The position numbers were made by a program, and so were the translations under genes. 32,958 bases of DNA, taken from positions 1 through 32,958 of the forward strand of contig JAKSYS010000690.1 in the NCBI GenBank assembly GCA_022925895.1, read 5' to 3'. Below, piece after piece: positions 6,874 to 32,958 of this stretch; within the stretch, counting starts at the first letter, position 1, and every line of letters begins with the position of its first letter. Origin of the DNA: Fragilaria crotonensis. Taxonomy: Eukaryota > Bacillariophyta > Fragilariophyceae > Fragilariales > Fragilariaceae. The notes under the pieces were generated by a model. That model did not search any database. It was not told the origin of the DNA and worked only from the letters and a program-made list of their open reading frames with translations.

Positions 6874-9800
6874 TTGATGGGCCCGCAATGGACCGATTTG
6901 ATGGGACAAACCCTACTGGAATATTCCGTGTCAGATTCCAAAAAGTTTTACTACATGCTCACTGATCCATTTGAGCAGGCAGACTATCCCTGTCCTCTTG
7001 ACATCAAGTGGAAAGACAGTGTCATTTCGGTTGCCATGGAGGTGATGTCAGCAATCATAACAAGAAGTTCCGTTTCATCACTTTTCTCTGTGATGACGCT
7101 CAAGGATAAACTTCCGACGACTGCAGTCACTCAGGACAAGTCATCACAACCAAGCAAAGGAGACACTATACTGCATTTCTATGAGACTTCTGCTTCCACT
7201 AGAAGTGTCCTGGAATCAATCACAACGATGCGGCCTGCAGGGGCTTCGTCTCCGAATAGTACAAGTTCTTCCGATTGCCATCAGCAACAAGACAAAGAAG
7301 AGGAACGCCACGAAGGAATGCCATGCAATTTTGTACGAGACGATGCATCAGCATTTCACATCCAAGCCAGTACATTGTGTTTTTGGAATAGTCGAGATGC
7401 ATGGAATTTATTTGCGGGTGGAGGGAGCACATCTTTTGAGGAATTTTCAGCCGACATTGGCGGGGGTAATAATGTTCTAGACATTTTGGAGGGTCATGTT
7501 GTCGCTCTACAATCTGCAAGCAAAACTCTGAATGGCTGGCGAGATGTGGTGCAAGGGCGCGATGCTGAAAATGTTTGTTCTAAATCTGACATTTTTGTCT
7601 TGAAGAGCAGGGCAATCATTCTGTGCTTGGCATACCGCACTGCCATGCGGCACATGAATTCATGGACGTGGAAGCAGTGCTGCAGGGAAGCCTGCCGACA
7701 GCTCAATGAACTTGGTGTGGTGCAAGCTACGAAACCTAGAAGCGTTCAAGATTGGAATTTGGAGTTTCGTAAGTGCAGGACATTCCTTCACCCTGATCAT
7801 ATTGTGAGATGTGGGAAACGCCCTTTTCCACTTCTCTTCATGAAGTATCCCGATACAAAAGATCAAATAGCAGCATTCGGCTTAGGTAACCTGTCAATTC
7901 TGACAGTTGAATTAGTGCGAGTATTCTGCATTGAAGAGCTCTTCCCAAGTATATACCAGCAGTGGTGTAACGATCACGAAGGTCACCAAGCAGCATCATC
8001 GCTGACACAAGAACTTTTTCTGAAGGTACACGGAATTACAAATTTTGGAATTCCGACATGCTGGCGATGGATGCAACTAATTGGCTTCGCATATAGTATA
8101 CAACAAAAATCGTATTATGTTGACGGTCATGAACGTGATGACGTTGTTTTATCTCGCAAGCAATTTTGTCAGCAGTACCTCACTGAGCTTGAACCAAAAT
8201 GTTTACGATGGGTGCAATATGCTTTAAGTGAACTTGAAACGGCAAATCTCAATCCTGAGTTTGGCTACAAGTATATCAACGAAGATTGCAACAGCGTTTA
8301 CTATGAGTTTCATATTGACTACTGTTACAGTTGTCGTGGAAACGAGACGTTTGATGCCATGCATGGAAAAATTGCGTCGATGAGTGTACGTGCTCCTCCT
8401 AATTCAAGGCCGATTGAAATTTATGGTCAGGACGAATCAGTTTTCTCCCAATTTCTGTTTCCCTCAAAGAGTTGGGTTGGCCCGAATCAAGAGCGAGGAT
8501 TGTTTCCCAAATCGCTTGGTGAAGGACTCATGGTATCTGCGTTTGTGTCTCGCGACACTGGATTCGGAATGCCAATGACGGATGAAGACCTGACCATAGT
8601 CAATGCTTTGCGACGAGGAACACACTACATTGACCAAACTGCTGCACTCGAAGTCAACAAGCATACTCGGAAGCAGCCGTTGACGGAGTCTCCTTTTGTC
8701 CGGCACTTGCTGATCGGAGCCTCGAAAGGTGGCTATTGGAATAGCTACCATATGGCAATTCAACTTGAAGATGTTGTTGATTGCCTGAAAATTTTCCGAC
8801 CGCAATTTGACTTTGTTTTTATGTTCGATCACAGTCAAGGTCATGCTAGGAAAAAAGATGGGGCTCTTGATGCAGACAGTATGTCGCGGAGTTTTGGAGG
8901 CAAGCAACCAAAAATGCACTCATCTGTGATAACGAGTAACTGCCTTGGCCCATTTGATTCTATACTGCAGGTAGGCGATCAACAGAGCATGGTCTTTGAA
9001 GCCGATGACCAGGGTCCATGGTGGTTGGCTACAGCAGAACAAGCGAGACGGAAGTATGACAATCACGACAACCGTGGGCGCCCCCCCAAAAATGTACCAC
9101 GAACACGGAATGAGTTGGCATTTGCATTGCTCGAGGAATCAGGCATCACGGTAGAGTCCAATCGCCCATTGAATGAGCTGAAGGAACTTGTTGCTATCCA
9201 TGGCATCAGTCTGATGCACGAGAAAGTCTATGTCAACGAAGGTTGGCTTGGCAAAGCAAAAGGACTACTCCAAGTCTTATGGGAGCGAGGGTGGATTGAT
9301 CCGTCCAACTGCAAAGAACATGTGGACAAACAAGGAAACAAATTGATCAACACATCATTTTATACGCTTGGCGGACGGAAAGATATCTTGACTGGTCATA
9401 TTATTGAATCGTCTTCGCTTAAAGGGTTGATGGGCAACTGTTATGACTTCAAGACGGAAGAAACAGCTCTGCAATTTTTGGGCTCCCAACTTGGTTTGCG
9501 TGTGATGTTAACGCCAAAGTTTCATTGCGAATTCGCAGGTGAAGGGATTGAGTACACATGGGCACAGGCAAAGGCACTAATGAGGAGAACACCAATGCGA
9601 GAGAAAAAGGGTCGAGCCAACTTCATCAATCTTGTGACAAGGTGTCTTTGCCCAACAACAGTCTTGACAAAAGAAAGGGCCGCAAGAGCACGAGCCTACA
9701 TATGCACATATTATTACCTTGAACGAGAGACAAACAACATTGATGAGATTGCTGAAAATGTGCCTGGAATTGCCGCAGCTGCAAAACAGCAGCTCCTTTA

Positions 9801-9915
9801 TAAGAAGATTGAACAACTCATGAAACGATTTAAAACACATCGCTGTGCTTTGGACTTCGACATTCGCTTTGTCCTTGCAACATTGAAGGAAGGGAATGAA
9901 GATAATGCTGCCTAA
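6874..9915 (+). CDS. DDE-superfamily transposase, long intact frame
   Basis: An uninterrupted 1013-codon frame. It matches in layout the DDE transposases common in basidiomycete fungi and scattered in protists, which lie near the Tc1/mariner-IS630 type. Residues about 423-445 carry the signature YYVDGHERDDVV. The proposed catalytic residues are D520 in GQDES, D652 in FMFDHSQGH and E893 in GIEYTWAQAK. Between the last two lie an AT-hook-like RGRPPKN, a helical part (RTRNELAFALLEESG) and the family-typical block GWLGKAKGLLQVLWERGW. The start is uncertain: 6874 is TTG, ATG is at 6877, and the native protein probably began further upstream in another frame. It stops with TAA. No terminal inverted repeats were found by eye. 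An intact core this long suggests recent activity, or domestication. Exact family assignment needs a search. Confidence 0.8.
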   Translation: MMGPQWTDLMGQTLLEYSVSDSKKFYYMLTDPFEQADYPCPLDIKWKDSVISVAMEVMSAIITRSSVSSLFSVMTLKDKLPTTAVTQDKSSQPSKGDTILHFYETSASTRSVLESITTMRPAGASSPNSTSSSDCHQQQDKEEERHEGMPCNFVRDDASAFHIQASTLCFWNSRDAWNLFAGGGSTSFEEFSADIGGGNNVLDILEGHVVALQSASKTLNGWRDVVQGRDAENVCSKSDIFVLKSRAIILCLAYRTAMRHMNSWTWKQCCREACRQLNELGVVQATKPRSVQDWNLEFRKCRTFLHPDHIVRCGKRPFPLLFMKYPDTKDQIAAFGLGNLSILTVELVRVFCIEELFPSIYQQWCNDHEGHQAASSLTQELFLKVHGITNFGIPTCWRWMQLIGFAYSIQQKSYYVDGHERDDVVLSRKQFCQQYLTELEPKCLRWVQYALSELETANLNPEFGYKYINEDCNSVYYEFHIDYCYSCRGNETFDAMHGKIASMSVRAPPNSRPIEIYGQDESVFSQFLFPSKSWVGPNQERGLFPKSLGEGLMVSAFVSRDTGFGMPMTDEDLTIVNALRRGTHYIDQTAALEVNKHTRKQPLTESPFVRHLLIGASKGGYWNSYHMAIQLEDVVDCLKIFRPQFDFVFMFDHSQGHARKKDGALDADSMSRSFGGKQPKMHSSVITSNCLGPFDSILQVGDQQSMVFEADDQGPWWLATAEQARRKYDNHDNRGRPPKNVPRTRNELAFALLEESGITVESNRPLNELKELVAIHGISLMHEKVYVNEGWLGKAKGLLQVLWERGWIDPSNCKEHVDKQGNKLINTSFYTLGGRKDILTGHIIESSSLKGLMGNCYDFKTEETALQFLGSQLGLRVMLTPKFHCEFAGEGIEYTWAQAKALMRRTPMREKKGRANFINLVTRCLCPTTVLTKERAARARAYICTYYYLERETNNIDEIAENVPGIAAAAKQQLLYKKIEQLMKRFKTHRCALDFDIRFVLATLKEGNEDNAA

Positions 9916-16747: not shown

Positions 16748-19624
16748 TCAAAAGTAATATTCAATATTCCGCAGTGCGCCGATTGAGGCGTCAGTAGGAA
16801 CCCACATACCAGCGTCAGCACGAACAACAGAAGGCTGCTCGTCACGAAATGCTTCGTTCGTCGCATACTTCGTAATGCTATCGTCGACACGGTATTTGCG
16901 AAGCCAAGGCATAAGGGCCATGACAAAGATCAAGCGCCATTGACCGCCGGCACGGTTAGCAAAGTGTTCGCCGTACTTTAACTTGAGCAAATAAATCACT
17001 CCCAGACGTTCCATGTAAGGATGACGATGGGCATCATGAAGGATCAAACCCTTTCGGAACTGCACGGGGTGGCCGTCTACAGATATGGGCCCAATCATCC
17101 CAACACCTGGGGCAAAGAGAGGTGTGTCAAGCCGCCCAATGTAAAGTGCACTTATCAAGAAAAGCTTGAACATTCGTACAACCATGGTCCCCACAGTTAG
17201 CCCAAGCGACCAGCATTCTTTCGCGAAGTGTGAGGGTTGCATCAACAAATGAGTCTCATTGGCATGGAGACACGTACCGAGGATGAGCATCAGGACATTG
17301 CCTCCAATCGGACTCTTGCGAAAGAATCCCACAAAGATAAACTGGCGCACGAATGTTAGAAGGAGTATCTTGACGGCGAGGGTCAGGAGGATTGCAATGA
17401 TGTTTGCAAGCAAGATAATCACCAGTGATCGAGTGGCGCTCCATACCAAGAAGAAAGTAAGAGTTGCAACAATTATCAAGATGGACAAACAACTGAACAA
17501 CGTTCCCCAGAAAGTTGATCCAAGCAGGATCGTGGTAACATCAGGTGCCTCGCGATATAAAGGAAAATTCCGGCACCGAAGGCTGCCGATGTAACCGCAG
17601 CGAAACTGCTGGATAGTGCTGACACTGGAAGGAATCAAAACAACTGCGAGTGAAGCTGCTGCGAGAAATGCAGTGACACAACCAACACCGACTGCACATC
17701 GAACTTCAGCCTCGGTTGGAAGCGAAGGATGAGGAAAAGCAAATGCTATTGTTGTCGGAGAAGGTGCCACAGAAGGGGCGTTCGTTGCAGGGTGGTAGGC
17801 TGATTGGACCAAGGGGTCGAGGCTCGTGTATAGGATAATGTAGAGGATGGCAACAAACCATTGGGACATGTTCATTGCGTAGAGACCGGCGTGGATAAAA
17901 ACGCCGTCCTCCTTGAACAAGGAACCGTTCCACATCCTTCGAAATGTATAAAAAATGCCCCCAACACGTTCGCGGTGGTCAGCAGTCGCTTGAAAGATCA
18001 TCATGGCTTTCGCACTGGCGCTCTTGAAGGAGGAAGCTTTCAACTTGACCCTCGCACTCTCGGCTTTACGAAGGATACTGCCATCGTGCTGAGCGAAAGC
18101 ATGGTCGACCATCCTCTTGATTTTGTACGCAGCCGCTTGCTTTGTGCAACACTCAGATTTCGCCATTTCACATGTCAACCAGAAGTTCGCAAAAGGAACG
18201 TTCTTCCACCTTGACCGCGGAATGAGGACGTAAAGAAGCCCCTTGATCTGAAACAGAAGGAGGAAGCAGCCCAGTGCAAGTGCAAAGCTGTACCCAAATT
18301 GCCCTGTAACAGACGAAGACTTGTTGGTGTTGATGATAGAGAATTCGACATCGAAGATATAGGACAACAGGCTTGTGAACATGATCGTTACAATTCCTAG
18401 CATGACTCCGACAAAGCTGGGAAGATTGTGCTTGAGGTGAACGGAATTACCAGCGGTTGACATCATGACGAAGATCGTTCCCAAAGTAATGAGCTGTACC
18501 ATAATTGTCAACCAGCGAATGATCGAGTTGGCGACGCGACAACCGAGCTCTGACATAAACGATGTCGTCGGACAATCCTGTCTGTGAAGCGCAATGACGC
18601 ATCGTATTGTGTGAGAGAAAGAGAGCGATGGTGACAAATGAAGGTTCTGTGTGAAGGCGATCGTAGACTTACAGTCCAACCGACATTACAAACCCAGATG
18701 CATACTGGTAGAGGACAACAACCACCAATACCCAGAGCAAGACATTGAAAGTTTTGGACTTATAATTCTCGGCGACAGTATCAATCGTTGTCAAAGTGAA
18801 GATCCGACGAATCTTGTCAGGGGCATCGTCGAAGTTCGCCTTGGCCAGTTCTTCATCGGGATCGTTGTCTTCCAAGTTTGCATCCAGAGACGTTCTGTCG
18901 AGAACGTCATCGTAATAAGTGGTTTCTCTAGTTTCCCATTCTGGATCGTATTGCTGAATGTCGGCGGTTGTGGCATTTACCAATTTTTTGTAATCAAACA
19001 TAGGCGAGCCATCTTTCTGTACCCCAGCTGCTTTGAGCATCTCATCAACCACCGCTGAAGTCACATCCTCCTCACCGTAAGTCTTCGCGATGTTCAGCAT
19101 CAAAGTTCGGTCTAAACGTACGGGTTCAGAGGATCCTGTGACATCCAAGGTGATCATCTTCAGTACTCTGTCGAAGAGAAATTCACTATCATCCCCAGCC
19201 CCAGTCTTACGAAGGTGTGGTATGAGCAAAATGCTGGCAAGCTCTACGAGATCAAAGACTGCGTCAGGAGATTCGTCAATGTCGCCGGCCAAACCGGGCA
19301 TAATATTATTTTCGACATACGTCAAGTCTACCTTGATGCCATGTCGAGAAAGGAGGAAATTGACGACGTCTTGGGCTGCAAGTATAAGGTTTCACCCAGT
19401 TAGATCAAGGTATCTATCAGGCATCCTGCAGTATCTGACAAAGCTCATTGTCGCCAGTGCCACTGGAGCAATCAGAGATAGTACTCGAACTGAACACCTA
19501 CCCACCACGTACCTGTTATCGATGCGTCCTGTCTCAGCGTCGGACCAGACTGATGCAGAGCTGAAATGTACTCAAGTTCCTTGCAATCGGCGTGTGCGCC
19601 AACCGGCTTCTCAAATGTAATCAT
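16748..19624 (-). CDS. STRA6-like multi-pass membrane protein with EF-hand-like N-terminal domain (three exons)
   Basis: Exons are 19624-19513, 19375-18673 and 18581-16748, with introns of 137 bp (GTACGT...TTGCAG) and 91 bp (GTAAGT...TCACAG); the frame is kept at both joins, giving 882 residues. Residues about 30-180 are soluble with degenerate EF-hand-like loops (DIDESPDAVFDLVE at 69-82; VQKDGSPMFDYKKL at 156-169). The first membrane helix is at about 246-271, and several more follow to about 760. The part from about 735 to 800 (GTMVV..., IGRLDTPLFAPG, the L-x-HDAHRHPYMERL region) resembles the C-terminal region of vertebrate STRA6, the retinol-uptake receptor, by my reading. Substrate in a diatom is unknown. 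The stop is TGA at 16748. The codon before ATG 19624 is open, so a longer N-terminus is possible. A decayed tandem copy lies upstream. Confidence 0.8.
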
Positions 19625-20535: not shown

Positions 20536-23439
20536 TCAAAAGTAATCAATCATCTCCACGGCGTCGATTGAGGGGTCGGTGATCATGAGAGGAACCCATA
20601 TACCAGCGTCAGTATGAGCGGCATGAGGCTGCTCGTCACGAAATTCTTCGTTTTTTCCAGCATATTTCGTAATGCTATCGTCAAGCCGGTAGCGGCGAAG
20701 CCATGGCATCAGGGCCATGACAAAGATCAAGCGCCATTGACCTCCGGCACGGTTAGCAAAGTGCACGCCGTACTTTAACTTGAGCAAATAAATCACTCCC
20801 AGACGTTCCATGTAAGGGTGACGATGGGCATCATGAAGGAGCAAACCCTTTCGGAACTGCACTGGGTAGCCGTCTACAATTAAGGGTCCAATCATGCCAA
20901 CACCTGGGGCAAAGAGAGGTGTATCAAGTCGCCCAATATAAAAGGAAGTTACCAAGAGAAGCTTCATCGTCCGGAAAAACATGGTTCCCAACGTTAGCCC
21001 AAGCGACCAGCATTCTTAAGCGAAGTGTAAGTGTTGCATTCACAAATGAGTCTCGTATCGGTAAGGAGGAGAAACGTACCTAGGGCGAGCATCAGGACAT
21101 TGCCTCCAATCGGATTCTTACGAAAGAATCCCACAAAGATAAACTTGCGCACGAATGTTAGAAGGAGTATCTTGAAGAATAGAGTCAAGAGGATTGCAAT
21201 GATGGTTGCAAGCCACTTTATCACCAATGACCGTGTGACGCTCCAAACCAAAAGAAAAGTTATACTACCAACCATAATCAAAACGGACAAAGAAGTGTAA
21301 AGGGTTCCCCAGAAGGTTGAACCAAGCAGGATCGTGGTAACATCAGGTGCAAAGCGATATGTGGGAAAAAAACGGCAACGAAGGCTTCCGATGTTACCGC
21401 AGCGAAACTGCTGGATCGTGCTGACACTGGAAGGAATCAAACAAGCGAGTGAAGCTGCAGCAAGAAGGCAGTAACACAACCGAGACCGATTGAAAATCGA
21501 ACTTCAGTCTCGGTTGAAACCAATATTGAAGAGGAGCAGGTGATGCCGATGGCGATGCCCTTGTTGTGGGAGGCGGCGCATCAGAAATGGTTATAGTGCT
21601 GTACTCGGATTGGATGGCAAGGTCGAGGCTCGCGTATATGATAATGAAGAGAATGACAACAAACCATTGGGATACATTCATCGCGTAGAGACCGGCGTGG
21701 ATAAAAACGCCATCCTCCTTGAACAGGGAACCGTTCCACATCCTTCGAAATGTATACAATATGCCTCCAACACGTTCGCGGTGATCAGCAGTCGCATGGA
21801 AGCTCATCATGGCTTTCGCATTGGCGCTCTTGAAGGAAGAAGCTTTCAACTTGACCCTGGCACTCTCGGCTTTACGAAGGATACTCCCATCGTGCTGAGC
21901 GAAAGCATGGTCGACCATGTTCTTGATTTTGTACGCAGCAGCTTGCTTTGTGCAACACTCAGATTTCGCCATTTCACATGTCAGCCAGAAGTTCGCGAAA
22001 GGAAGGTTCTTCCAAGTTGACCGTGGAATGAGGACGTAGAGAAGAGACTTTATCTGAAAAAGAAGGAGGACACAACCCAGTGCAAGCGCAAAGCCGTACC
22101 CGAATTGCCCTTCAGCAGACGAAGACTTGTTGGTGTTGATTAGAAAGAATTTGACTTCAAAGATGTACGACAACATGCTGGAGAACATGATCGTTACAAT
22201 TCCTAGCATAACTCCGACAAAGCTGGGAAGATTGTGCTGGAGGTGAATGGAGTTTCCAGCTGTTGACAATATGACGAAGATCGTTCCCAAAATAATGAGC
22301 TGTACCATAAGCATCAACCAGGCAACGATCGACTGGCCAACGCGACATCCAAACTCGGACATGAACGATGTCGTCGGACAATCCTGTCTGTGAAGCGCAA
22401 TAACGCATCGTATTGTGAGAGAGAGAGCGATGGTGACAACCCAAAGTTCTGTACGACGGCGACGATAGACTTACTGTCCAACCGACGTGTCAAAGTCAGA
22501 TGCATATTGGAAAGGGCTACAACAACGAACACCCAGAGCAAGACATTGAAAGTTTTGGACCTGTAATTCTCGGCGACAGTATCAATCGTTGGTAAAGTGA
22601 AGATCCGACGAATCTTGTCAGGGCATCGTCGAAGTTCGACTTGGCCAGTTCTTCATCGGGATCGTTGTCTTCCAAGTTTGCATCCAGAGACGTTCCGTCG
22701 AGAACGTCATCGTAATAAGTGGTTTCTCTAGTTTCCCATTCTGGATCGTATTGCTGAATGTCGGCGGTTGTGGCATTTACCAATTTTTTGTAATCAAACA
22801 TTGTGGAACCATTTTCTGTACCCCAGCTGCTTTGAGCATCTCGTCAACCACCGCTGAAGACACATCCTCCTCACCGTAGGTCTTCATGATGTTCAGCATC
22901 ATAGTTCGGTCTAAACGTACCGGGTCAGAGGATCCAGTGACATCCAAGGTGATCATCTTGAGAACTTTGTCGAAAAAATTTCGCAATCATGCTCGGCTCC
23001 AGTCTTGCGAAGGTGTGGTATGAGCAAAATGCTGGCAAGCTCCACGAGATCAAAGACTGCGTCAGGTGATTCGTCAATGTTGCCGGCCAAACCGGGCATT
23101 AGATTTCTTTCGACATATGTCAAGTCTGCCTTGATGCCATGTCGAGAAAGCAGAAAATTGACAACGTCTTCGGCTGCAAATGCAAGGGTTCACTGAGTAA
23201 GATCAAGATAAATACCAGTCTTGTGGTTTCTGACAAGGCTAATGGCCAGTGCTACTGGTGCAATCAGAGATTTATATGACTTCTCACTGTACTCAGCACC
23301 AGTAACGAACACCTACCCACCACGTACCTGTTATCGATGCGTCCTGTCTGAGCATCGGGCTAGACTGATGCAAGGCTGAGATGTACTCGAGTTCCTTGCA
23401 ATCGGCGTGTGCGCCAACCGGCTTCTCAAATTCAATCAT
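20536..23439 (-). pseudogene. Decayed tandem copy of the STRA6-like membrane protein gene
   Basis: Exon order and splice sites match the intact copy: exon 1 23439-23328, intron 23327-23174 with the same GTACGT donor and TTTGCAG acceptor, then exon 2 from 23173. Protein identity is high throughout, including the VDLVE-type acidic loop, the TM segments and the C-terminal STRA6-like block, ending ...MIDYF and TGA. Compared with the intact copy there are single-base deletions near 22972, 22806 and 22620, further indels near 22540 and in 21430-21500, and a TAA stop near 21016 (GCT TAA where the other copy has GCG AAA). The reading frame cannot give a full-length product. It may still yield truncated proteins or act as a source of antisense or gene-conversion events. 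Because the neighbouring copy is clean, decay is more likely than poor sequence. Confidence 0.85.
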
Positions 23440-25772: not shown

Positions 25773-27502
25773 ATGGGAGCTGTTCAAAGTACTGAAAAAG
25801 ATGACCTTGCAACTCAAGCTGCTAAAGTCATTAAAAGCATCTATGGCGGGGGTGGCAACGACTCACGTCCAATCAAAGAATGCTTGTGCTACAATGATGA
25901 CCGCACATTGAATCAACTTCTGTATCAAGAATATCAGCAAAGAGAAGAAGATGAGGAGGATGCAAGGAGGAAACTTCAATTCATGTACCTGCAGTTTGCA
26001 CTTGAGCAACAGATGAGGCGAAGGCACGAATGAAGAATTCACTAGAGCCACCTACCAAACGAGCGAGAATGCAACACCCAAAATTTTGCACTGACCCAAC
26101 AACTGGAAATCCTCGCTCTGTCACGCCAAAACTTAGTCTATGGTGGATACTCTACATGCAAGATCCACAGCCTGATAATCCTCAATGGGCCAAGACCTTT
26201 AGGAAGCAATTTTGATTGCCGTACAACTCTTTCCTTCATCTACTGCAAATGGTTGAAAATGAAAGGGCTGTTTCGGGCGGTATGTTTCACAGATGGAGAG
26301 TTGATGGCACATGCAAGAACAGAAAAGTAAGTCCTATCGAACTATTAGTATTGGGTAGCTTACGTTACCTTGGTCGAGGGTGGACGTTTGATGATCTGGT
26401 GGAGAGTCGACTTTATTGACAAGGAGGTGTACCGCGTTTTCTTTCACAAATTCGTGGAGTTCGGCGCCAGAAGCTGTATCCCCTATATGACAACCCTTCT
26501 ACGTTAGAGGAATTACGAGACTGCGAACGTGAGTACAGAAATGCAGGCTTTCCTGGTTGCATCGGCAGCACGGATGCAACACACATACCTCTTGAGAAGA
26601 TGTCATTTGGATTAAGGCAAGCGCATCTTGGGTACAAGATGCCTTGCACCACTCGGATGTACAATTTGACGGTCAATCACCGTCGCAAGATATTGCACAC
26701 CACGACAGGCCATCCTGGAAGGTGGAATGATAAAACTCTCGTACGATATGATGGCTTCATGCATCAACTCCGAGATGGTGAGTTTGATTCCACGATGTCG
26801 TTTGTTTTGTCGAACAAAAGTGGAAGCGATGTCACAATCAAGGGTGCATATGTAATTGTCCACAATGGCTACCTGAAATGGCCTACAACTGTGCCTCCAT
26901 TGAAGCATTCTATGAATCGCAGTGAGATTCGATTCTCCCAATGGCTCGAATCCTTGCGAAAGGATGTTGAGTGTGCGTTTGGAATATTGAAAGGACGATG
27001 GCGAGTTCTCAAGACAGGAATTAGGATGCACAACAGCGAAGTTGCAGATAATATCTGGCTGACGTGTTGTGCTCTGCACAACCTTCTGTTGTATGTTGAT
27101 GGCCTGAGCGACGGTTGGAGAAATGGTGTTCCGTCCCACTGGGAGTTAGAGAGCGGAGAATTCGATGAAAGCGAGGTTCCCGATGCTATTCGGAGGTTGG
27201 TTGACCCGTCCGGAGCAAATTCACGTGCAATCCGTACCTACGATGGTACCACAATTGGATATAAGAACGACGCAGGACATAATGACAAATACAACAGTGC
27301 TGATGACGTTGCTGAAAGTTGTTCTCCGAGCACAACTTTTAGGAATGGAATGGCAGTGAAGGATTTGTCATTGACTTGTTTCCGTTCAATGCTTATTGAA
27401 CATTTCGACACTAAATTCCACGAAAATGATATGACGCGACTTGCCAAGAAACCACGACAAGTTCCCACCAGCACTATTCCTAATGGACATAAATTCATCT
27501 AA
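25773..27502 (+). pseudogene. PIF/Harbinger-type transposase (DDE_Tnp_4), inactivated
   Basis: The first part runs from ATG 25773 (MGAVQSTEKDDLATQ...) to TGA 26031-26033, which overlaps ATG 26030 of the next frame (ATGA). A one-base shift there would fuse the two. The second frame to 27502 has the family layout: helix-turn-helix-like N-terminus (LPYNSFLHLLQMVENE...SPIELLVLGSLRYLGRG), GCIGSTDATHIPLE with the first catalytic Asp (codon 26573-26575), GHPGRWNDKTL, and DVECAFGILKGRWRVL with the catalytic Glu (codon 26969-26971). The position where relatives have the second Asp, in IV-D-NGYLKW, is CAC (His) at 26861-26863. In-frame TGA at 26213-26215 interrupts KQF|LPYNSF. A pair of shifts around 26408 and 26468 creates the apparent stop at 26417-26419. 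The protein would not be active. Confidence 0.85.
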
Positions 27503-28211: not shown

Positions 28212-30059
28212 TCAATTCCTCATAAACAGGGACACTTGCCCAATGCCTTGTTCGACATAGAGATGACGGAAGTTCGCCCCACCCAACTCCAAAGGACCGT
28301 AGATGATCTCGCTCTTGGTATGCCGATTGAAACCGCAACGTGGGACAATGATCGACATCGCTTTCCGTTGTACCTGATCCAGTCGTTGTCGTGTAAGAGA
28401 TGAGCACGCTAACGGATAACCAACACTTGGGAGGTAGCAGGCATAATAAAAAGTCCATGTTTCGAGGCGTGTAAGTGGGCATGTCCACAGGAAGGTCGTA
28501 ATCTTGTCGCTCTTTGATTTGAGTTTTCGAAATTGTTCGGTTTGATTCCCAGCTGGTGCTTTATAGTGCCCTAATGTCTTATGTGCCTCATACGGTGACA
28601 GTAAGGGTAGTTGATGTGTCGTGCCGGTGGATCGATCTATGACACGCAACACTTCTTGGTGAGCAGATTGTTTCGGGGCCAAAAATGGTGCTCCTTGCTG
28701 TGTAAACCACCAATGGAGTACTTGGCACGAGGACTTGGATAATTCCAGTGCACCACCACTCGAGTGGAGTAAGTCATTCCACAATTGTGCATTCTTCTGC
28801 GTGCGTACCAAGATATCCCGAAGCGTCTCATCAGATCCTGGTGCTAAAAAATTGTTCGCCTGCCCATTGCAATCGTCCACAAAAGCTACTAATCCCAAAG
28901 ACGCTGACGTGCATTCATCCGGTGAATAATATACCGCAGGTGTTGCAGCCGTGTCATAGGCATCCATGAGACAACTCGACAGAAAACACCAGATCGCTGG
29001 GGAGTTGGCACTGCCCTGTCCCGTGCCATAGATGGGCTTGCTATCCGAATGTACGTAACCCTTTGGAGCGAGTCCTAATTCTGTACGGACCCTGAACTCC
29101 GCTCTCTCCAAGGTGACTGCATTGGCCTGAGTCACCGGAAGCGGAACGCCGAACTTCCGACTAACAATCATTGCTGCATTTTGAATCATTCGGTCGAAAC
29201 ATGCAAGCGCATCATAATTGATCAAGACCACTGACCGCCGAGTGGCACGAGAGATCTCACACTGGAGTTCCTCGATGAACACTGGATCCGTTGCATTTCG
29301 TCGTGGTCGAGACCCATACTGCCCATCATTTAATGCTGCCAGGGCCTCGGCTTGATACATCTGAATCCTCCACTTAATTCCCAAGGCGAGATTAAAGTCC
29401 GCTTCATAAATGTGAATCACTCGAGTACGATGTAACCGCACGTTATCCGGATCTTTGAAGAGAATTGTATTGGCAATTGTTTGCCAACGTTTATACGAAT
29501 ATCCTCGCTCAAGCGCATAATTCAACAGATTCAAGTGCAAAGTCCGCAGGTCGTTTTGCATCATGTCAAGCTCGTCTCGGTTTCTACGGAACTCTGGGGT
29601 CAATTCATCGTCTGGGAGGTGTGATGAGTATGAATGTCGTGCGATCAAGGCCTTATAGTGTCCGAGGTGTAATCCTGACGGAGACGTGGTGGTGGATTCC
29701 GACCAGACGCGCAATTTACTAATGAAGTCGTCCATTGAGATGGTTGGAAACGAGGGGGACGCTGCCATTTCGTGAACCTGTGTCATGTGCTGCAACAAGA
29801 GTCTCACATTTTTACTCACGTCATCGTCATCGTTCGTCCGGTGTTGATATGTGCCGTCCAAAATCCTCGTACTCGAAGGTCTATCCCCACAAAAGCCTAA
29901 GTCGTCGAGAAGTGGTGCAACAGTGAAGGGCGTTCCCTTGGCTTGTCCGAAATGAGCGGTTTCGTTCCTGTAATAACCGAACAATCTCAGTTGGTACATC
30001 GATCTGTCGCCATTCAGTACACATCTTGGGATTGTCGTCTGGATGCAAGGGAATTTCAA
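28212..30059 (-). CDS. LINE ORF2, reverse transcriptase part
   Basis: This part of the LINE polyprotein makes DNA from the element's RNA at the target nick. In the 615-codon frame, motif A is INYDALACFDR (Asp about 283), motif B is GTGQGSANSP (345-354) and motif C is FVDD (393-396), with FKDPDNVRLHRTRVI and GIKWRIQ upstream, as in non-LTR reverse transcriptases. The C-terminal part runs into LELGGANFRHLYVEQGIGQVS and stops at TGA 28212-28214. Homology then goes on in another frame for about 15 codons. Its first 36 codons overlap the endonuclease frame and are not native; true sequence begins at HFGQAKGTPF (about 29954). A one-base shift, or programmed frameshifting, is needed to join the endonuclease. 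All polymerase residues I can check are intact. Confidence 0.88.
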   Translation of the reverse strand: MKFPCIQTTIPRCVLNGDRSMYQLRLFGYYRNETAHFGQAKGTPFTVAPLLDDLGFCGDRPSSTRILDGTYQHRTNDDDDVSKNVRLLLQHMTQVHEMAASPSFPTISMDDFISKLRVWSESTTTSPSGLHLGHYKALIARHSYSSHLPDDELTPEFRRNRDELDMMQNDLRTLHLNLLNYALERGYSYKRWQTIANTILFKDPDNVRLHRTRVIHIYEADFNLALGIKWRIQMYQAEALAALNDGQYGSRPRRNATDPVFIEELQCEISRATRRSVVLINYDALACFDRMIQNAAMIVSRKFGVPLPVTQANAVTLERAEFRVRTELGLAPKGYVHSDSKPIYGTGQGSANSPAIWCFLSSCLMDAYDTAATPAVYYSPDECTSASLGLVAFVDDCNGQANNFLAPGSDETLRDILVRTQKNAQLWNDLLHSSGGALELSKSSCQVLHWWFTQQGAPFLAPKQSAHQEVLRVIDRSTGTTHQLPLLSPYEAHKTLGHYKAPAGNQTEQFRKLKSKSDKITTFLWTCPLTRLETWTFYYACYLPSVGYPLACSSLTRQRLDQVQRKAMSIIVPRCGFNRHTKSEIIYGPLELGGANFRHLYVEQGIGQVSLFMRN

Positions 30060-31782
30060 TTCTCGTTACTCCTTGTCTTAATTTATTCTTCCGTACGCCA
30101 CTAATCTTGCGAAATAACTGCTTGATATCTTCTGCCTTTTTCATATGTCTCAGCCGAGTTGCTGATTCTTTGTCCGATTGTTTCCCAGACGTTTCGAGTG
30201 CTGCAATTTTTCGTTGGCGTTCTTGATCTCGACGTTCATAGCTCTCAGCTATGATTGCCTTGATGGATGATTCAACCTTGCGAATTGCCGCAGAGCACTC
30301 ACTCGGCGTAGGGGGCAACGGCACTGGTGTTAATAATTGAGCCATCTCGCGCGTTAAGACACTGGAGTGATCGTAGTGTGTGCGAAGAGCTGACAAATGC
30401 TTCTTCAGTACGACAACTTGTTTGCGAGCTTCGGCAAGTTCCACCGACCATGCGGGTTCCCCAAACTTTTTCACTTTTGCTGCTGCTGCCAAGCTTGCCG
30501 TCAGAACATCTTGGTCCAGTCGTTCTGCAAAAGCATGACGATTGCCGGGTTGTGTCAATTGTACACTCCTAACGAAGGCGTTGTGATGATGGAACAGAAT
30601 CCGATATTTCTCCCGGATGTACTCCGTCACTTGCTGTGTATTATTCGACGACAAGTCCCTCTTTTCTGCTGATACCAATTGTTGAGTGTCGGAACCGAAT
30701 AGGGCATTGGAGTCAAAATCGAGATAGAAGCCTCTGTGATCGGACACTATATGTGCATTGAATGCTTCGTATCCAGCGGAGATCACAGCATCACCCACCG
30801 CGGGACTAGCAAGTGCATAGTCCAGGCGTTTCGTACCACGTGCATAAGTGACTGGGGGTGTAGAAGAATTTCGCCTTGCGAAGACATCGATGAGACCCAA
30901 TTCCCCTGCGATCTTGCTCATACCATCTGGGTCGGCCCCAAAAACTTCGTTGAAATCTCCGACTACCAGCAACAACGTGCCGACCGATGCGTATGTCTGT
31001 AACGCTTTCAGCAGATCCCTCCGGAACGCTGTTCGCGGGTTCAGAACTTGATCTTGTGTCAGTCTGAGGAGGCTGGCATGTTGAGCCGCCACTGTAATGG
31101 TACCTGGGCTAATCACCTTGTCCACGGGTTGATAGGCTGAAAAAACAGCAATCTTGCGTGTTCCTTTGCCTGTGAATTCCTGAACTACCCACCGTCCCCA
31201 TGGGTCACGGTCCTGACAAACAATACGTCCCATCAAGCTGTCTACCGTCAAAATCATTGTCCCCCCCGGTTTATAAGAATTTTCCACCGTTATTGGTGTC
31301 GTTCCGAGAGATATTCGATGTCGCTTCCAATGTTGCTTGGCAGAGTCAAACAAGGCACTCCGAATTCGAAATTGCGTAGTGTCTAAGTTATGTTCTTGCC
31401 CACAGAAGATGTCCGCCTGGACCTCTTTGATTGACCGGCAAATGTCATCAAACGTGCCTCCTCTCCGGTCGATAGAAATGCCGTTGACATTAATTGAATA
31501 GAGTCTTATGATACTCGAGTCTTTGGGTCCCAAGTCATCTCCCCAAGGAACGTTAGAACGCATATTCAGAGTTGTCAGTGTCGTTGGTCTCGAATCATTG
31601 TCCGTAATCGGCTTGGAAAATAACTGTCGCCATTGTAACTTCGCGCTGTCCAATATACTTATGGGAATTGACGTTGCGTTGTCGATAGGAATCGAAGTTC
31701 CGGAACCGACTGACTGTGCATCGTTTGACGGTAACTCAGTTTCCATCTCAGATGCCATCGACACTCGATTGTATTGGCTCAT
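29881..31782 (-). CDS. LINE ORF2, N-terminal APE-type endonuclease part
   Basis: This is the endonuclease/exonuclease/phosphatase domain that nicks the target to prime reverse transcription. Active-site motifs are all present: NVNGIS (Asn 100), FCGQEHNLD (Glu 130), GGTMIL, VVGDFNEVFG (Asp 276, Asn 278), KRLDYALAS (Asp 321) and SDHRGFYLD (Asp 348, His 349). A long helical linker with Arg/Lys-rich stretches (RRDQERQRKIAAL) leads to IEIPLHPDDNP and IVRLLQERNRS at about 29957. The true reading then moves into the reverse-transcriptase frame; the last 20 codons here are out of frame. ATG 31782 shares its A with the TAA of ORF1. With motifs intact, this copy is young or was active until recently. 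Confidence 0.88.
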   Translation of the reverse strand: MSQYNRVSMASEMETELPSNDAQSVGSGTSIPIDNATSIPISILDSAKLQWRQLFSKPITDNDSRPTTLTTLNMRSNVPWGDDLGPKDSSIIRLYSINVNGISIDRRGGTFDDICRSIKEVQADIFCGQEHNLDTTQFRIRSALFDSAKQHWKRHRISLGTTPITVENSYKPGGTMILTVDSLMGRIVCQDRDPWGRWVVQEFTGKGTRKIAVFSAYQPVDKVISPGTITVAAQHASLLRLTQDQVLNPRTAFRRDLLKALQTYASVGTLLLVVGDFNEVFGADPDGMSKIAGELGLIDVFARRNSSTPPVTYARGTKRLDYALASPAVGDAVISAGYEAFNAHIVSDHRGFYLDFDSNALFGSDTQQLVSAEKRDLSSNNTQQVTEYIREKYRILFHHHNAFVRSVQLTQPGNRHAFAERLDQDVLTASLAAAAKVKKFGEPAWSVELAEARKQVVVLKKHLSALRTHYDHSSVLTREMAQLLTPVPLPPTPSECSAAIRKVESSIKAIIAESYERRDQERQRKIAALETSGKQSDKESATRLRHMKKAEDIKQLFRKISGVRKNKLRQGVTRIEIPLHPDDNPKMCTEWRQIDVPTEIVRLLQERNRSFRTSQGNALHCCTTSRRLRLLWG

Positions 31783-31784: not shown

Positions 31785-32958
31785 CGTATCATCACGCCCA
31801 GCCGGATCACTTGGATTTGTGTATTGAGCATCCGGGGGGCTTGAATTTTGTTTGTGAGTTTGTGAAGTGGATTGTCGAACGAGGTCGTCATGAGATTGGC
31901 CCGATAAAGCACTGGCAATAACAGTATCCTGAGTTTCATCTGGAGGTCCTTCCTCGAAAAGGCACATTTGAACATCTTCAAGGTCGACTGGGGGACTTGC
32001 TGAATTCGAGATATTCTGCTCATCGTATTTCCGCGTTTTCTTCTTCTCGGGAGATCTGCGATACATTGAGTCCTCTGATGCCACGGATGTGCTGTCCCCC
32101 GTGCCTTGTAACTCAGTTGTGCGAGTGGATTCAGAAATTGTCGTCAACTGATGATGCGGCATTGGAAACGGCGGAAAAGCTGAATATGAAAAGTTACTTT
32201 CAACTTGAACACTGTTGCCGCTTGGCTGATGCATCAGTGTGTGCAACATGAGTCGCATGCTCTCCATCGTGATGTTGAAACCCGCGAACTGCGTTTGTAA
32301 TCCAGCCACTGTATGTGTCATTTCCGTTATGGTCTCCATAGTTTCTCGAAGACTTTGTTCATTTGCCGCCAATCTGTCCGACGAGTCTCGAGCTGATTCC
32401 CGGTTCGAACGTAGGAGTTCTCGACATTCGCGCATCTGATTTTCCAACTCCGTCATCCGCATGGTCGTTGACGATCTCAACGTATTGGTCAGAGAATGGG
32501 TAGAGGCTGTGTCGGCTCGGTCGTCAACTTCTTCCGACGTGAGACTGATATGGGATGATTTACCATGCATGTCCAGTTGAGTTTTGGGTTTTCCCTTAGG
32601 CGGTAGATTGGCACCCGACTTAAGTACTGACTTGATCGGATTAGAGACGTCAAGTCCTGGTCGTTTTACCAACGACGGCCACTGAGTGGTATTGTCACTG
32701 TTGACCGGTGCGTCCGACGAAGCTGAACGGTTTGCTGCAGCTGATGCGACAGCAGAAGGCGAAGATTTGACCGATGGCGGAGCTTTACTCCAAATATCGC
32801 TGGAGGACATTTTTGCCATAAAGTCTAGGTTAGTTTGAACAGTAGATGTAATGTGAATGACATCTGGTAAGTCTGGAATCCTTCTCGATACTTTGCTTCT
32901 CGGCGAGCAATCGGTCGTAAACGTTCCTTGTATTTCGCCACCATCGCTCGAATTTCTG
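31782..32958 (-). CDS. LINE ORF1, coiled-coil protein (5' end beyond window)
   Basis: Frame open from the window edge to TAA 31782-31784. ATG 32819 would give 345 residues, but 46 codons upstream are also open (…RRIPDLPDVIHITSTVQTN), so the protein probably starts outside the window. The N-terminal part is Ser/Pro/Ala-rich. Residues about 118-195 (from 32819) form a coiled coil (MTELENQMRECRELLRSNRE, ...LRETMETITEMTHTVAGLQ), as in trimeric LINE ORF1 proteins. The rest is polar, with a basic KKKTRK patch that may bind RNA or act as a nuclear signal. I see no CCHC knuckle in the visible part. ORF1 proteins bind element RNA and act as chaperones; here that role comes from position and build only. 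Confidence 0.72.
   Translation of the reverse strand, partial: RNSSDGGEIQGTFTTDCSPRSKVSRRIPDLPDVIHITSTVQTNLDFMAKMSSSDIWSKAPPSVKSSPSAVASAAANRSASSDAPVNSDNTTQWPSLVKRPGLDVSNPIKSVLKSGANLPPKGKPKTQLDMHGKSSHISLTSEEVDDRADTASTHSLTNTLRSSTTMRMTELENQMRECRELLRSNRESARDSSDRLAANEQSLRETMETITEMTHTVAGLQTQFAGFNITMESMRLMLHTLMHQPSGNSVQVESNFSYSAFPPFPMPHHQLTTISESTRTTELQGTGDSTSVASEDSMYRRSPEKKKTRKYDEQNISNSASPPVDLEDVQMCLFEEGPPDETQDTVIASALSGQSHDDLVRQSTSQTHKQNSSPPDAQYTNPSDPAGRDDT

Follow-up and report, generated by a model that had tools for sequence, protein, structure and literature searches.

A diatom gene family whose products may join a calmodulin-like module to a STRA6-like membrane part

What might a diatom do with a protein that begins like calmodulin and ends like STRA6, the retinol-uptake receptor of vertebrates? 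The question is raised by a gene in the window (by which we mean the whole 32,958-nt stretch of Fragilaria crotonensis DNA that was analysed), for which the initial annotation had proposed degenerate EF-hand-like loops fused to a STRA6-like membrane protein and, with them, calcium-controlled movement of a retinoid, a carotenoid derivative or another lipid. Our preferred reading, to which we give a probability of about 0.45, is that the product is a distant relative of STRA6 with a built-in calmodulin-like module, which would grip its own chain in cis and respond to calcium. That the architecture itself combines a STRA6-like membrane part with a calmodulin-like module seems, from the alignments set out below, quite probable; the full mechanism that we propose is appreciably more speculative, and we would put it at somewhat less than an even chance.

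The gene indeed lies on the minus strand at 19624-16748, and an 882-codon frame without a stop is obtained when only the two introns originally recognized are removed (intron 1, 137 nt, 19376-19512; intron 2, 91 nt, 18582-18672; both placed by reading frame and by comparison of copies). A third intron had been missed. Comparison with other copies identified it as the 60 nt at 17277-17218, a stretch bounded by GT...AG that in this copy (copy A) happens to be in frame and stop-free. At the same site, spliced alignment gave 58-65 nt in the other eight intron-bearing copies, in which the stretch contains in-frame stops or shifts the frame under the 882-residue reading; its removal leaves no stop codon in any of the nine copies that carry it, and it is absent from two others, C571 and C394 (C21 is too degraded to be informative on this point). 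The 882-residue, two-intron product is accordingly rejected. With the stretch spliced out, the protein has 862 residues and the gene three introns, copy A comprising 862 codons and a stop (16748-19624, minus strand) in exons at 19624-19513, 19375-18673, 18581-17278 and 17217-16748.

When the product was aligned, with splicing, to the 62-Mb diatom assembly, 12 genomic places were found, namely the window gene and 11 further copies or fragments: copies A and B in tandem on the contig of the window (C657), two on C147, three on C478, and one each on C125, C149, C21, C571 and C394, of which the last two form the most divergent type, with 32% identity to copy A. No relatives of the gene were found in viral and prokaryote contigs. 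Copy B, the tandem paralogue (20539-23439, minus strand; about 83% identical), has six frameshifts, but we reject its interpretation as a pseudogene, because its comparison with one of the C478 copies (C478_a) showed 15 gaps and 0 substitutions across 3.4 kb, which makes indel errors in the assembly likely. Copy A and C478_c similarly differ by 18 gaps and seven substitutions. It thus seems that the window locus was assembled a second time, with many errors, as C478, so that the frameshifts in copy B may be spurious. The region C147:25700-32800 holds a B-type copy that lacks 234 codons (457-690) and an A-type copy 98% identical to that of the window; these two copies perhaps represent the other haplotype.

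In three paralogue comparisons, whole-gene dN/dS was 0.29-0.32; residues 1-190 gave 0.20-0.24, and residues 736-816 gave 0.16-0.23. Apart from a short linker, in which dN/dS varies (0.07-0.54), the ends of the protein have the lowest values, and both are under purifying selection. A loop at residues 525-566, with dN/dS of 0.50-0.67, was the top region in two of the three comparisons (0.52 in the third). We also draw attention to the extreme C-termini of the four members that were aligned in detail, in all of which the last residue is aromatic (YYF, DYF, KFF and YIF; the ends of the C125 and C571 proteins rest on modelled introns); this residue is perhaps a trafficking signal.

Several other features of the window and the genome may be recorded here. 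The window contains a 1013-codon open frame with no Pfam match at E 0.01 (6874-9915, plus strand), a match to the transposase family DDE_Tnp_4 (26600-27502, plus strand; E 2e-18), a LINE-like element consisting of two overlapping frames (28212-31782, minus strand) that match an endonuclease/exonuclease domain (1.8e-13) and, weakly and below the cut-off, a reverse transcriptase (1.8e-4), and a weak tyrosinase match, also below the cut-off (31785-32957, minus strand; E 0.0045). Elsewhere in the genome, the silicon transporter family PF03842 is represented (best match 4e-193), which marks the genome as that of a diatom, and two or three silicon transporter units stand in tandem at C97:29749-33762 and at C771:21664-24330; C97 has one open frame of 1456 aa, and fused multi-unit silicon transporters are possible.

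How good is the case for calmodulin at the N-terminus? Pfam gives none: no EF-hand family was matched at E 10 by the whole protein, by the other members or by pieces of them. The EF-hand reading of the initial annotation nevertheless survives targeted tests, as a calmodulin-like module. A profile made from residues 1-189 of the four members found 144 PDB sequences at E <= 5 (best E 0.0024), of which the best 60 are all calmodulins, and the reversed profile found 0. With hhalign, residues 68-175 pair with residues 53-147 of calmodulin, a match that covers three EF units in succession (P 0.0005, as compared with 0.19 for the reversed N-terminal profile), and 0 of 200 window shuffles reached the score; MAFFT aligns the whole N-terminal stretch onto the four units of calmodulin in one register. 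The first two EF units on their own (residues 1-97) found nothing in the PDB, and an AlphaFold model of the N-terminal window piece was too low in confidence to use (pLDDT 34). At the level of sequence, residues 1-178 (18954-19624, minus strand, split by intron 1) resemble calmodulin, with four helix-loop-helix units.

Whether such a module could sense calcium depends on its loops. In the register given by MAFFT and hhalign, the EF2 loop of copy A (residues 71-82, DESPDAVFDLVE; 19242-19277, minus strand) retains the ligand positions 1, 3, 5, 9 and 12, and EF1, EF3 and EF4 are without calcium ligands. The EF2 ligands are retained in three of the four aligned members (C125 having T at position 5); in the fourth and most distant, C571, the loop has G at position 1 and H at position 12, and both of these ligands are lost. 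The calcium control originally proposed is therefore left with one loop of four, and with none of this support in C571.

The remainder of the protein appears to be an integral membrane part of about eight spans and a last intramembrane segment. From hydropathy and charge, we envisage four spans beginning with the hydrophobic segment at residues 242-270 (18678-18764, minus strand), a long basic loop (residues 393-500, 20 K+R and 9 D+E; 17897-18220, minus strand) that is taken as cytosolic, four further spans, and the last segment, so that both ends of the chain would lie inside. A Pro/Ser/Thr-rich, little charged and fast-evolving loop (residues 531-566; 17699-17806, minus strand) is taken as extracellular. 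Behind the long basic loop, the hydropathy profile shows a hydrophobic pattern like that of STRA6, the alignment to which is unreliable in the stretch of the 531-566 loop; the AlphaFold model of the membrane window piece was again too low in confidence to use (pLDDT 35).

It is in the last segment and the tail behind it that the likeness to STRA6 is concentrated, in three blocks, all on the minus strand. One (17126-17176) runs from R721 to GRLD (734-737) and aligns to the end of the STRA6 IM helix (R511, GRLD); the next (17012-17077), from D754 to HPYM (772-775), aligns without gaps to the JM loop of the zebrafish protein (D539, HPVM); and the third (residues 793-816; 16889-16960) aligns, again without gaps, to the calmodulin-binding segment BP2.

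Family-level and database searches gave this likeness no help. The Pfam search for the RBP_receptor family (PF14752), a check that the initial annotation had itself named, found no match at E 10 with the whole protein, with any of the four members or with C-terminal pieces, although the same scan scored zebrafish STRA6 at 3.4e-271. When the genome was searched with PF14752 there were 0 matches, the control being silent as well, and the zebrafish STRA6 C-terminus as query also found no match there. In the PDB, no STRA6 was among the matches listed for exon 3 alone, nor in the best 60 of the 94 found by the whole-family profile (top match calmodulin, E 0.14), and the C-terminal profile gave only six unrelated matches (best E 1.3). 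Membership in the RBP-receptor family is not claimed.

Direct comparisons were mixed. BLASTP with composition correction matched copy A to human STRA6 at E 1.6e-4 and to zebrafish STRA6 at 0.03, and the other members matched the zebrafish protein in the same C-terminal stretch at E 0.39-0.43. When 56 polytopic proteins served as controls, the four members placed zebrafish STRA6 at ranks 3, 3, 2 and 2 among 58, and human STRA6 at 1, 7, 36 and 51. With a STRA6 profile, copy A came first of 35, and C571 third on raw score and eighth on Z; HMM comparisons gave the members other than copy A ranks between 3 and 42, and placed reversed diatom sequences high as well. For the membrane part, a chained alignment was equalled by 0 of 300 shuffles at gap 10/0.1 and by three of 300 at gap 12/0, the plain local alignment of the whole part being weak (45 of 300 shuffles do as well). 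When the C-terminal part was aligned locally to STRA6 with hhalign, the score fell short of significance (equalled by 17 of 200 shuffles), and counts of identical columns were weak too (52 and 8 shuffles, out of 200 each, reach them).

Tests confined to the C-terminal tail were more decisive. For a STRA6 profile built on residues 500-622 of the zebrafish protein (in trimmed numbering), 1298 natural 110-residue tiles served as controls, among which 0, 0, 0 and 1 equalled the four members when long gaps were cheap, and 0, 0, 3 and 3 at gap 10/1; the soluble tail without the membrane end was beaten by 19, 10, 40 and 104 tiles. Scored as three ungapped blocks in order, the members reached 81.5, 77.5, 73.0 and 66.0, as against 41.0 for the best of 186 control proteins and 48.5-56.0 for the best shuffles (0 of 1000 per member reaching the score of that member), figures that flatter the match somewhat because the block limits were set after the alignment had been seen. 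The middle block alone is ordinary, and between nine and 33 of the 186 control proteins do as well. Taken by its aligned residues, the stretch 721-816 resembles the STRA6 C-terminus, and the STRA6 likeness initially suggested holds in this targeted form, far above natural and shuffled controls, although without a Pfam match.

Two details give the resemblance a possible functional sense. R721 and D754 are invariant in all four aligned members, and the spacings from R721 to GRLD (13) and from D754 to HP (18) are those of zebrafish STRA6, in which, by the numbering used here, residue 511 is R and residue 539 is D. A salt bridge between the IM arginine and the JM-loop aspartate of STRA6, at the retinol site, has been described (PMC5954442). 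The 24-mer aligned to BP2, compared without gaps, outscores all 1298 tiles in each of the four members (the reciprocal test was beaten by four of 1298), and it matches the peptide of entry 5k8q, which is zebrafish STRA6 BP2 crystallized with calmodulin; PMC10871162 describes this complex (5K8Q) and its calcium-dependent binding. The initial idea of a calmodulin-like module and a STRA6-like part in one chain is thereby sharpened, as every aligned member has a BP2-aligned segment. Taken overall, both halves of that idea have come through targeted tests, and its family-level Pfam test has failed.

How might such a protein work? With both of its ends in the cytosol, the N-terminal module would be able to grip a BP2-like segment, either in its own chain or in a dimer partner, and thus to play in cis the part that a separate calmodulin subunit has in STRA6. 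Binding of calcium by EF2 (residues 71-82) may alter this grip, and an altered grip would in turn change a lock formed by R721 and D754 beneath the lipid site, which could govern how a small hydrophobic molecule is released into the membrane. Calcium control and a hydrophobic ligand are both conjectural. Candidates for the ligand include an apocarotenoid, a sterol or another lipid, and we count in favour of this proposal the carotenoid cleavage oxygenases of the genome (nine matches on six contigs); a search for bacterial-type rhodopsin gave no match, its control being silent as well, and one for lipocalins gave a single weak match (E 0.0018). As no counterpart of the STRA6 carrier-binding loop could be recognized, in an alignment that is unreliable in this stretch, another donor, or none, would be expected.

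The same architecture could also be static. The module may be a fixed structural clamp on the C-terminal segment, neither binding calcium nor controlled by it, and we regard this as a somewhat unlikely but serious alternative: three of the four loops of copy A are without ligands, C571 has lost EF2 positions 1 and 12 as well, the module is still under purifying selection, and the role of calmodulin in STRA6 has itself been called enigmatic (PMC5954442). Retention of EF2 positions 1, 3, 5, 9 and 12 in three of four members is, however, hard to explain without the binding of calcium or magnesium.

Less likely again is that the membrane part is unrelated to STRA6, the protein being an EF-hand-regulated transporter of some other fold with an amphipathic C-terminal helix that has come to resemble BP2 by convergence. 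In its favour are the absence of a family-level match and of a confident model (pLDDT 35), and several whole-region tests that fell short of significance; it would not readily account for three blocks whose order, and whose distance from the last hydrophobic segment before them, are the same in all four members, or for a salt-bridge pair at identical spacing even in the member that is only 32% identical. That both resemblances are due to chance, in what would be a diatom membrane protein of an ordinary, fast-evolving kind, seems very improbable, even though no STRA6 match rose above any database-wide threshold and AlphaFold was of no help: two independent resemblances, each beyond its controls, would also have to fit each other by accident.

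If the preferred reading of a distant STRA6 relative with its own calmodulin-like module is pursued, its implications are considerable. Two papers on its evolution call STRA6 animal-specific (PMC5977736) and absent from invertebrates (PMC5133064), and full-text literature searches found no paper that links STRA6 and EF-hands to diatoms, oomycetes or choanoflagellates, or a STRA6-like protein to Phaeodactylum, though UniProt/InterPro may hold similar proteins that are already annotated. A diatom relative, if true, would make the origin of the fold far older and separate it from retinol-binding protein. One may tentatively suppose that STRA6 is a single branch of an older group of eukaryotic lipid or apocarotenoid exchangers, of which the diatom branch would be a self-contained, calcium-gated form with an EF-hand module that works the intramembrane lock via its own BP2 helix. 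Since such a natural fusion would unite the regulator with the helix on which it docks, the enigmatic role of calmodulin in STRA6 would become testable on a single protein.

Finally, it is useful to set the protein beside the systems that it most resembles. STRA6 is a dimer with nine membrane helices and an IM helix. Like STRA6 (zebrafish, PDB 5SY1; PF14752), the diatom protein has, at the level of sequence, an IM helix end with GRLD, the IM arginine, the JM-loop aspartate, HPxM and a BP2 segment, and its long basic loop precedes a hydrophobic pattern similar to that of STRA6; unlike STRA6, it has no PF14752 match, only four hydrophobic segments ahead of the long loop where STRA6 has five (as read from hydropathy), no recognizable carrier-binding loop, and a calmodulin-like module within the chain instead of a separate calmodulin. 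Its likeness to calmodulin, again at the level of sequence, extends to four helix-loop-helix units that align in a single register across some 175 residues, and shows in the profile and hhalign matches as well; the protein differs from calmodulin in having ligands only in EF2 (in copy A), in its membrane part and in the lack of a Pfam EF-hand match. For the principle of a fused regulator, the closest parallels are the mitochondrial carriers SCaMC and aralar/citrin, which have a membrane fold unrelated to that of the diatom protein and in which a fused calmodulin-like EF-hand domain controls transport by calcium.
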